Shown here piece by piece: positions 21,864 through 25,059 of a stretch of 64,000 bases of DNA. A program made the translations under genes and the position numbers. The DNA comes from Silanimonas sp. (GTDB lineage: Bacteria; Pseudomonadota; Gammaproteobacteria; Xanthomonadales; Xanthomonadaceae). Numbering within the stretch: the first letter of the stretch is position 1; each line of letters begins with the position of its first letter. Below the pieces are notes generated by a model. That model was not told the DNA's origin. It did not search any database and worked only from the letters and a program-made list of their open reading frames with translations. Location of the stretch: NCBI RefSeq assembly GCF_027531545.1, contig NZ_JAPZSC010000002.1, positions 1 to 64,000 on the forward strand, given 5' to 3'.

Positions 21864-22304
21864 GTGCGATCTCCGAAACACGAAAAAGATGTCGTGAATA
21901 TTGAAGCGCGAAAACCCGTGCGGCGCAAGCCCGCGGGTGAGTCGCGCGTGAAGGCTTCGCCCGCGAAGCCCGCGGCGAAGGCTTCGCCCGCGACCAAGAC
22001 GGGAGCGAAATCGGCCGACACCGACGCCCCATGGACCTTCCTCAGCAACCACACCCATGTGCTGGTGTGCCTCGCGGCGGACGCGGAGCAGACGCTGCGC
22101 GACGTCGCTTCGAAGGTCGGCATCACGGAGCGCGCGGTGCAGCGCATCGTTGCCGAGCTGGAGGCCGCGGGCGCGCTGACGCGCGAGCGCGACGGTCGGC
22201 GCAACCGCTACCGGCTCGACACCTCGCTGCCGCTCCGCCACCCGCTCGAGAAGCACCGCAGCATCGGGGACGTCCTCGCACTCGTCCTCGGCAAGGGCCG
22301 ATGA
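21864..22304 (+). CDS. Winged-helix (MarR-like) transcriptional regulator
   Basis: The C-terminal part (WTFLSNHTHVLVCLAADAEQ, then VASKVGITERAVQRIVAELE and a wing with TRERDGRRNRYRL) is a compact winged-helix domain. An unusual Lys/Ala/Pro-rich N-terminal tail of about 50 residues includes a 17-bp direct repeat (GAAGGCTTCGCCCGCGA). The start is uncertain: GTG 21864 sits one base from the icd start, and GTG at 21894 or later is possible. It probably forms an operon with the kinase gene 4 nt downstream. Confidence 0.75.
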   Translation: MRSPKHEKDVVNIEARKPVRRKPAGESRVKASPAKPAAKASPATKTGAKSADTDAPWTFLSNHTHVLVCLAADAEQTLRDVASKVGITERAVQRIVAELEAAGALTRERDGRRNRYRLDTSLPLRHPLEKHRSIGDVLALVLGKGR

Positions 22305-22308
22305 CCGG

Positions 22309-25059
22309 ATGTCGGTAACGGATTCGAACCCACGGGCTTCGGGCGAGGTGCCGCGCGGCGGCGTGCTGCGCTGGCCGGGGGCCGAATTGGACTTGCGCAG
22401 CGCGCAGGTCCGTCGTGGGCGGCAACTGTTGGCCCTCGACCGCTCGTCGTACGAGGTGCTGCTTGCCCTGCTGCTGCGCGCCGGACAGGTGCTCGGCAAG
22501 GACGATCTGCTCGACGCGGCCTGGCCCGGGCGCGTCGTCTCGGAAAACTCGCTAGCCAAGGCCATCAGCCGGCTGCGTCGCGAGCTGGGCGACGAGGCCG
22601 GTGCGCCGTTGCAGTCGGTGCACGGTTACGGCTACCGCTGGGCGGGCGAGGTGCATTGGGTCGAGTCCGAAACACCGTTGCCCGCTCCCGCCGCCGAGCA
22701 CGACTGGGTCGGTGCGGCGGTGCCGAACCGGACGGGATGGACGTTCCGGCGCGTGCTCGGTCGCGGCGCCCACAGCACGGTGGTACTCGCCGATTCCCTG
22801 TCGGGCGAGGTGCCGAGGGCACTCAAGATCGGTCTCGGCGAAGAGGGCCTGCGCCACGTGCGCCGGGAGGTCGCCCTGCATCGCTACCTCGCCGCGATCA
22901 ACCACCGCGTGCCCGGCCTCGCGCCCGCGCTCGGCTGGCAGCTCGATGAGCCGCCCGTGTTCGTCGAATACCCGTACTTCGAGGACGGCGACTTGGCGCG
23001 CTGGATGGCCGCGCGGGCCCTCGGTGGCGGCGTGCCCCTCGAGCACCGCCTCGCCCTGCTCGCGCAGATCGCCGACACCCTGGGGGAGCTGCATGCCGCG
23101 GGCGTCGTCCACCAGGACCTGAAGCCGGGCAATGTCTTCCTCTCGCCGGACTCGTCGCTTGCCGAAGGCTGGCGCACGTCCTTGGCCGACCTCGGTGGCG
23201 GCCATGCCTCGCCGCTCTCGCAGCAGACGGAAGCGCTCCTCGACGCGGATGTTCTCGTCGATGCCCGCCAGGCCGCCGCACCGGGCGCGGGCGCCGCCCT
23301 CCACTCCGCCCCCGAGGTCCTGGCGGGCGGTCTGCCCACGCAGCGCAGCGATCTCTACGCCTTGGGCGTCCTCCTTTACCAGCTGGTCGTCGGGGACCTT
23401 CGGCGTCCGCTGGCGCCGGGCTGGGAGGCCGATGTCGATGATCCGCTGTTGCGCGACGACATCCGCGCCCTGGCCGCACTCCGGGTGGAGGAACGCACCC
23501 TGGGCGCCCAGCAGTTGGCGCTGCACCTGCGCCAGTTGCCGGCGCGGCGCCTCGCCGCCGAAGCCCACGACAAGGCCGCGGCCCGCGAGCGCCTCGCCGC
23601 GCAGCAACTGCAGCGCCAGCAGGTCCGGCTGCGCCTGCTGGGAGCCGCGACGGCGGCCCTGTTCGTCGGGTTGGCTGTCGCCAGTTGGGCGGGCTGGCTG
23701 GCGTGGGACGCGCGGCGCGACGAGGGCCTCCGGCGCAGCGAGGCTCAGGCGGTGCTCGGTTTCCTGACCGATGACATGCTCACGCGAGCTGATCCCTATC
23801 GCGGCGGGGATGCCGGGATCAGTTTGCGCGGGTCGCTCGATGCGGCGGCGGCGAAGATCGACGAGCGTCTGGGCGAACGCCCGCTGGTGGCCGCGGCGGT
23901 GCATGCCTCGGTCGCCGAGGCCTACGAGTCCTGGGGCGAGTACGCGAAGGCGGCGCGCCACCAGCGATGGGCGATCGAGCGCACCGAGGGGGTCAGCCCC
24001 GGTACGGAGTCGCTGGCAGGCCAGCAACGGCGGCTGTGCCAGTTGGAGAGGTTGTCCGGGAACCTGGAAGCGGCGCAGACCGCCTGCGACGCCGCCGCCG
24101 CCCACGATCGCAGCACGCTCGGCGCTGTTTCCGACGCCAGCCTCGTGGAGGGCGCGAAACTGCTCTACGAAAGCGGAAGATGCGGCGAGGTGGTCGGCCA
24201 ACTCGGGTCGCTCCTCGCCGACGAGCCGCGCCGGAACGGATTGCCCGCTGGCGTGGAAGCCGATGCCCGCTGGTTCATTGGCCTGTGCCAGAGCCGAATC
24301 GGCGAGGAAGGCGCGGCGGCGGAATCCTTCCGCGCGCTTGTCGCCCTGCGCGAACGCGAATCGGGGCCCGAGCATCCGCACACCGCTTGGGCGCTTTCCG
24401 ACTATGCCGAGGCGCTGGCCCGGGCCGGGCGTTTCGCCGAGGCGGACGCCATCCTCGAGCGTCTGGATCGTCTACTCCTGGATCGGCTCGGCCCCGATCA
24501 TCCGGACTCTCTGGCCGTCGAGTACCGCCAAGGCCTGGTCGCGGCTGGGCAGGGGAGGGACGAGGAGGCGACGGGCTCGTTCGGCCGCGCGCATCGCGGA
24601 TGGAGCCAAGCGCTGGGCGAGCGCCACATCCTGACGGTCTTGGCCGGTTCCGAGCTGGCCCGCAGCCTTGCCCGGCAGGGCGACCGCCCAGGCGCGAGCG
24701 CCGTGATGGCGCGACTCCAGTTGGTGGGACAGCCGGACACCTTCGGTCGCGATGCGCGGGCTGTCGATATCCACGAGCTCTGGGCCGAAACCCTGCTGCT
24801 GTTGGGGCGCACCGAGGATGCGGCTGTGGCCTTGGCCGGCTTCCAGGCGAGGGCCTCCGAGGTCCTGCCGGAGCACCACCCTCGCCTCGCCATGGCGCGT
24901 TGCTTCGAAAGCCAGATCGCGACGCGTCGGGGGCAGCTCGACCAGGCGGGTGTGGCCCTCAGCGCCTGCCGGCTGGGTCTCGCCCGGCTGGCTCCGGACG
25001 ATTACCGGCGTCGTGCTCTGGCGGATGCGGAACAGGCCGTGGATGCCATGATCCGTTGA
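22309..25059 (+). CDS. Fusion: OmpR/CadC-type DNA-binding domain, Ser/Thr kinase, membrane helix, TPR-like tail
   Basis: Residues about 20-112 form a Trans_reg_C winged helix (LLDAAWPGRVVSENSLAKAI, SVHGYGYRW). Residues 144-410 are a Hanks-type kinase with a complete catalytic set: glycine loop GRGAHSTV (151-158), Lys173, Glu187, HQDLKPGN (Asp270, Asn275), DLG (Asp294) replacing DFG, APE (334-336) and SDLYALGVLLYQL. A single membrane helix spans about 443-466. The remaining 450 residues are helical and TPR-like and should be periplasmic. This topology suggests a CadC-like sensor whose cytoplasmic part can both bind DNA and phosphorylate targets. Partner and signal are unknown. Confidence 0.85.
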   Translation: MSVTDSNPRASGEVPRGGVLRWPGAELDLRSAQVRRGRQLLALDRSSYEVLLALLLRAGQVLGKDDLLDAAWPGRVVSENSLAKAISRLRRELGDEAGAPLQSVHGYGYRWAGEVHWVESETPLPAPAAEHDWVGAAVPNRTGWTFRRVLGRGAHSTVVLADSLSGEVPRALKIGLGEEGLRHVRREVALHRYLAAINHRVPGLAPALGWQLDEPPVFVEYPYFEDGDLARWMAARALGGGVPLEHRLALLAQIADTLGELHAAGVVHQDLKPGNVFLSPDSSLAEGWRTSLADLGGGHASPLSQQTEALLDADVLVDARQAAAPGAGAALHSAPEVLAGGLPTQRSDLYALGVLLYQLVVGDLRRPLAPGWEADVDDPLLRDDIRALAALRVEERTLGAQQLALHLRQLPARRLAAEAHDKAAARERLAAQQLQRQQVRLRLLGAATAALFVGLAVASWAGWLAWDARRDEGLRRSEAQAVLGFLTDDMLTRADPYRGGDAGISLRGSLDAAAAKIDERLGERPLVAAAVHASVAEAYESWGEYAKAARHQRWAIERTEGVSPGTESLAGQQRRLCQLERLSGNLEAAQTACDAAAAHDRSTLGAVSDASLVEGAKLLYESGRCGEVVGQLGSLLADEPRRNGLPAGVEADARWFIGLCQSRIGEEGAAAESFRALVALRERESGPEHPHTAWALSDYAEALARAGRFAEADAILERLDRLLLDRLGPDHPDSLAVEYRQGLVAAGQGRDEEATGSFGRAHRGWSQALGERHILTVLAGSELARSLARQGDRPGASAVMARLQLVGQPDTFGRDARAVDIHELWAETLLLLGRTEDAAVALAGFQARASEVLPEHHPRLAMARCFESQIATRRGQLDQAGVALSACRLGLARLAPDDYRRRALADAEQAVDAMIR

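Follow-up and report, generated by a model that had tools for sequence, protein, structure and literature searches.

In bacteria, a sensing kinase and a DNA-binding regulator are usually apart, or the kinase is absent. In regulators of the ToxR/CadC type, an OmpR-type winged helix forms the N terminus and a single membrane helix leads to a C-terminal domain beyond it; no other cytoplasmic domain lies between the winged helix and the membrane. PknB-like Hanks-type receptor Ser/Thr kinases combine a kinase fold and its catalytic residues with a membrane helix after the kinase. In the actinobacterial systems EmbR/PknH and AfsR/AfsK, a regulator with an OmpR-type winged helix receives its signal from a Ser/Thr kinase that is a separate protein.

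The window analyzed here is a 64,000-nucleotide stretch of DNA from Silanimonas sp. that encodes a 916-residue protein with features of each of these systems. The protein has the N-terminal winged helix of a ToxR/CadC regulator, a single predicted membrane helix and a C-terminal domain that would lie beyond it, but a whole kinase domain (residues 139–418) is inserted between the winged helix and the membrane helix and the tail is a TPR solenoid. The protein departs from the ToxR/CadC layout because of this interposed kinase domain. It shares the kinase fold, the catalytic residues and the membrane helix after the kinase with PknB-like receptors and differs from them by its N-terminal DNA-binding domain and a Gln in place of the HRD Arg; its glycine loop and its activation segment are also shifted. 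As in EmbR/PknH and AfsR/AfsK, a kinase would act on an OmpR-type winged helix, here within one chain instead of between separate proteins. The protein should work like a membrane one-component regulator. The features of the locus, in window coordinates, are:

21864..22304, + strand: small winged-helix ORF, weakly MarR-like, true start uncertain (Pfam, neighborhood)
22309..25059, + strand: wHTH-kinase-TM-TPR protein, 916 aa (ORF, Pfam, AlphaFold2 model)
22360..22665, + strand: OmpR/CadC-type winged helix, residues 18–119 (Trans_reg_C, model, CadC chain 5ju7)
22543..22599, + strand: helix 79–97, taken as the recognition helix (AlphaFold2; role inferred from the OmpR-type fold)
22723..23562, + strand: Hanks-type kinase domain, residues 139–418 (Pfam, alignments, fold matches)
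23188..23190, + strand: codon of the DFG aspartate Asp294 (alignments; Gly in the G001 and G005 orthologues)
23635..23703, + strand: predicted membrane helix, about residues 443–465 (hydropathy, flanking charges)
23764..25056, + strand: TPR superhelix, residues 486–916, probably extracytoplasmic (Pfam, fold match)

The reading put forward here, for which the case is evenly balanced, is that the protein is a membrane-tethered one-component regulator whose kinase domain passes a signal from the outer TPR domain to the attached winged helix. It would be a ToxR/CadC-style transcription regulator in which a Ser/Thr kinase domain follows the DNA-binding head and precedes the membrane helix. The TPR domain would lie outside the cytoplasm and bind a ligand or partner, and the long juxtamembrane helix would carry the effect to the cytoplasmic kinase domain. 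The kinase domain would respond by ATP binding, dimerization or autophosphorylation, and this response would switch the winged helix of the same chain at its promoter. The kinase of the window protein is probably catalytic; in relatives that have lost catalytic residues, the domain would serve as a pseudokinase relay only. This proposal builds on a domain order, a single hydrophobic helix, a set of catalytic residues and a conserved family that sequence and model establish. With both domains in the same membrane protein, the family offers a direct way to test a Hanks-type kinase domain as an intramolecular transcription-factor switch. Same-genus orthologues with and without the DFG Asp, together with sister genomes in which the site is empty, make this test practical.

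Domain architecture and membrane topology

No in-frame start precedes the ATG of the ORF at 22309–25059, and 4 nt separate this ATG from the stop of ORF 21864–22304. Pfam places Trans_reg_C at residues 41–110 (E 1.1e-12; 48.3 bits versus a curated cut-off of 26.2), Pkinase at residues 146–363 (E 1.5e-13) and the best stretch of TPR_12 at residues 656–718 (E 2.5e-10), the latter two also above their curated cut-offs. Among solved chains, the winged helix is closest in sequence to the DNA-binding domain of CadC (5ju7; E 1.1e-6). An AlphaFold2 model of the 916-residue protein on a 68-sequence alignment has a mean pLDDT of 86.6 and a pTM of 0.54, values consistent with confident domains and an arrangement between them that is not confident. 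The model runs from a winged-helix fold through the kinase and a long helix across the membrane segment to helical repeats. The fold-search matches, which cover the kinase and TPR parts, align the kinase with solved kinase chains at Z 24.0–25.4 and the TPR part with APPBP2 chain 8jal_A at Z 28.6 (410 residues, rmsd 3.3). A sequence-only reading had proposed a single protein that joins a DNA-binding domain, a kinase, a membrane helix and a TPR tail; Pfam, model and hydropathy bear this out. Its assignment of the N terminus to the CadC/OmpR winged helices is confirmed by the Trans_reg_C match above cut-off, the model and the CadC chain. Lack of a recognition helix had been named as the observation that would count against it, and AlphaFold2 predicts helix 79–97, taken as this helix, at high confidence.

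One segment of the protein reaches a Kyte-Doolittle mean of at least 1.5 (19 residues from position 443, mean 1.88). A hydrophobic helix no more than 200 residues after the kinase is found in 77 of 82 relatives, which favors a relay role for the kinase domain; three of the five proteins without one are truncated or cut ORFs (L048_8, L123_2 and L146_2). The 15-residue flank of the helix is more positive on the kinase side than on the other side in all 77. Hydropathy and charge thus support a predicted topology with the DNA-binding head and kinase inside and the TPR domain outside.

Catalytic residues of the kinase domain

Alignment of the window kinase shows that K173, E187, H268, D270, K272, N275, D294 and G296 are all present. 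The domain has the VAIK Lys, helix-C Glu, catalytic Asp, Asn and DFG Asp expected of a Hanks-type kinase, and the earlier claim that the catalytic Lys, Glu, Asp and Asn are retained is correct (K173, E187, D270, N275) and extends to the DFG Asp, D294. Predicted kinase activity is plausible because these five residues are in place. A full GxGxxG loop and an HRD Arg are common in active kinases but not universal, and the window kinase lacks this pair of features. The glycine loop reads GRGAHS, with the first two glycines present and Ser156 at the third; the HRD Arg is replaced by Gln269 (HQD); and the DFG motif is DLG. The activation segment, GAALHSAPE, has an Ala before the APE motif where 61 of 82 relatives carry Thr. 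The 82 relatives also vary at these positions. The place of the HRD Arg is held by Lys in 59, Arg in 13, Gln in 9 and Gly in 1, and Gly occupies the first, second and third glycine positions of the loop in 60, 20 and 15 proteins, respectively. The window's own genome has six Pkinase matches, of which the window kinase is the weakest (54.7 bits versus 68.4–176.3), a point against the relay, and the window protein is the sole full-length match in that genome.

Family and distribution

The family was gathered by searches seeded with the window family and is not a random sample. Among first-round members, Trans_reg_C and Pkinase were matched in 34/34 and TPR_12 in 30/34, which favors the relay. 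The searches yielded 138 ORFs with both domains, and removal of 56 as repeated kinase sequences left 82 distinct proteins; L119, L120 and L121, which have a strong kinase and no winged-helix match, are left out of this set. The architecture therefore recurs across genomes and is not a one-off. L154, L155 and L156 have about 155 residues more between the winged helix and the kinase than the window protein.

Prevalence was measured with a profile spanning both domains at E 1e-40 or better in draws from the order, class and phylum, with the own genome counted in each; few candidates were scored per genome, so the counts are lower bounds. At least 56 of 398 genomes in the order draw match the two-domain profile (26 of 98 genera), including one, G1074, in which the kinase part alone and no winged helix was found. 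The class draw gave at least 4 of 369 genomes, two of them outside the order, and the phylum draw at least 6 of 398, three of them outside the class. Named holders are a Silanimonas metagenome-assembled genome (MAG), Lysobacter niastensis, Rhodanobacter lindaniclasticus, and Nevskia and Hydrocarboniphaga MAGs. A public Silanimonas MAG protein is 94% identical to the window protein, and G002, from the same genus, has a 94% match. The parts of the protein are of known kinds, and a search of open-access titles and abstract openings found no description of their combination, from which absence from print does not follow. The text of one census (PMC1183210) mentions neither CadC nor TPR.

Loss of catalytic residues in relatives

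Loss of catalytic residues in homologues had been named as the sign of a pseudokinase. The outcome is mixed: at least one of the five residues is lost in 11 of the 82 proteins, two of them from the same genus, and all five are kept in 71. Retention in these 71 counts for the relay reading and also against it, since phosphotransfer would then usually matter. The winged-helix profile is still matched by all 11 residue-loss proteins, which argues for the relay. The residue-loss label needs three changes on a quick tree that is rooted at the midpoint and has long branches, the longest being that of L044. The first is an eight-member group; in seven of its proteins a degenerate kinase is followed by a second kinase stretch, and the eighth is a truncated neighbor. 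This group appears to have lost its catalytic residues rather than never having had them. The seven tandem proteins (L045, L046, L047, L048:5655-9854, L122, L123 and L124) have the order winged helix, degenerate kinase, second kinase stretch. In the four second kinases inspected (L045, L046, L047 and L048), HRD, Asn and DFG are retained, and a hydrophobic helix follows the tandem in the same four proteins. The winged-helix scores of the eight-member group are low (32–44 bits versus 63–142 in the others), which weighs against the relay. The second change falls on L044 alone, a protein with a long branch, and the third on the Silanimonas pair G001/G005, nested among intact orthologues, in which the DFG Asp is replaced by Gly and DLKP by DLRP.

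Constraint among the Silanimonas orthologues

The winged helix is the best conserved part of the protein in the two more distant pairs. Identities between the window protein and G006 are 85.4% for the winged helix, 67.8% for the kinase and 53.1% for the TPR domain, and the corresponding values for G001 are 87.5, 61.2 and 54.8%; both sets favor a relay to a conserved DNA-binding head. The kinase dN/dS of the DFG-less pair G001/G005 (0.128) is close to the 0.132 of window/G002, which points the same way, and the differences between the G001 and G005 kinase domains are mainly synonymous despite the lost DFG Asp. Other comparisons go against the relay. The winged helix of G001/G005 is no better conserved than the kinase (96.9 versus 97.1% identity; dN/dS 0.111 versus 0.128), and a 55-residue stretch around the membrane helix in window/G002 is 98.2% identical versus 97.9% for the winged helix. 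The kinase dN/dS is 0.32 for window/G001 versus 0.162 for window/G006, and the higher value could reflect relaxed constraint, although dN is similar (0.312 and 0.285) and synonymous sites are near saturation. We read these substitution patterns as predicted DNA binding being a steady output and the kinase domain retaining a role without the DFG Asp.

The upstream MarR-like gene

The earlier description of a co-directional MarR-like regulator 4 nt upstream is correct as to position, and the likeness to MarR is weak (25.8 bits versus a cut-off of 24.6; HTH_24 gives 26.8 versus 21.9). The first ~50 residues of this ORF are basic, with many Ala and Lys, which makes its true start uncertain; the start adjoins a divergent gene that we take to be of the isocitrate-dehydrogenase type. 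The MarR-like gene lies directly upstream of the kinase gene on the same strand in 5/5 kinase-bearing Silanimonas genomes. The ORF was unmatched at all non-Silanimonas loci examined, some of which have little flanking sequence or are cut off by a contig edge. A homologue occurs in 18 of 60 relatives. In the same-genus genomes G003 and G007, the gene order is an isocitrate-dehydrogenase-type gene, the MarR-like gene, and then an amidase-type (G003) or permease-type (G007) gene, with the flanking types presumed from their translations. No match to the kinase protein lies between the MarR-like gene and the next gene in either. The kinase gene is a separable unit because these two genomes keep the gene order without it. 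G017 has the MarR-like gene with no adjoining kinase match within the stretch examined. A dedicated MarR-like partner is weakened by the 18/60 occurrence and the kinase-less sister genomes. At residue 106, the MarR-like protein has Thr in four of the five kinase-bearing genomes (Ala in G005) and Glu in the kinase-lacking G003 and G007; this pattern is a lead only, seen post hoc in a tiny sample of related genomes.

Alternative readings

One alternative is a receptor with two outputs, as in the sequence-only reading, in which the kinase phosphorylates separate proteins, perhaps the MarR-like neighbor, and the winged helix binds DNA independently. The five catalytic residues, the adjacency in all five kinase-bearing genomes and the post hoc Thr106 pattern in its small related sample favor such a receptor. 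The MarR-like protein as substrate, proposed in the sequence-only reading, is weakly supported: it gains from the adjacency and loses from the same gene occupying the same place without a kinase in two sister genomes. The absence of a kinase match beside it in G017, its presence in 18 of 60 relatives, the lack of a match at the non-Silanimonas loci examined, and the Thr106 retained in G001 although its kinase has lost the DFG Asp, make two outputs unlikely. Retention of the catalytic residues in 71 of 82 proteins would also suit a protein whose main output is the kinase, with the winged helix merely tethering the receptor to the chromosome or regulating its own gene. Many matches start near query residue 140 and extend into the TPR region, which suggests putative kinase-TPR proteins without a matching head. 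In the more distant Silanimonas pairs, however, the winged helix is the most conserved part, and it persists in proteins with lost catalytic residues; we regard this arrangement as quite improbable. A shade less probable again is the view of the window protein itself as a pseudokinase receptor, incapable of phosphate transfer. The Gln for the HRD Arg, the Ser for the third loop glycine, the missing activation-loop Thr and the loss of the DFG Asp in two of the four other Silanimonas orthologues point in this direction, but K173, E187, D270, N275 and D294 are retained in the window protein, G002 and G006.

The membrane-tethered regulator with a relaying kinase domain is thus the reading retained. 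A broader and more tentative version, which we consider somewhat doubtful, is a class of DNA-binding receptor kinases in which an outer TPR sensor would act through the kinase domain to control the winged helix of the same chain. Pseudokinase allostery would replace catalysis in several lineages, including the wHTH-pseudokinase-kinase-TM-TPR tandems with their JAK-like layout.

Other candidates and observations

An anti-phage defense role was rejected; the PADLOC matches, among the best 25 of 27, are on the kinase domain (top mad6, 3.2e-23). FxSxx_TPR and other NCBIfam identities were also rejected, with scores far below their cut-offs among the best 25 of 41 matches. Conserved neighbors as targets were set aside, the ORF families being clusters of mechanical ORFs made with no gene finder. 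One such family occurs at 13 loci, and 11 of its 13 ORFs lie upstream in the opposite orientation; a second, at 12 loci, has 19/19 ORFs so placed. One representative of each gave no Pfam match. The own genome also contains, on contig C11, a 1439-residue ORF (L174:934-5253) that has two kinase stretches and lacks a winged-helix match. Its first kinase has HRA instead of HRD. This protein may be a defense-type kinase, and the adjoining ORF is presumably coupling-protein-like.
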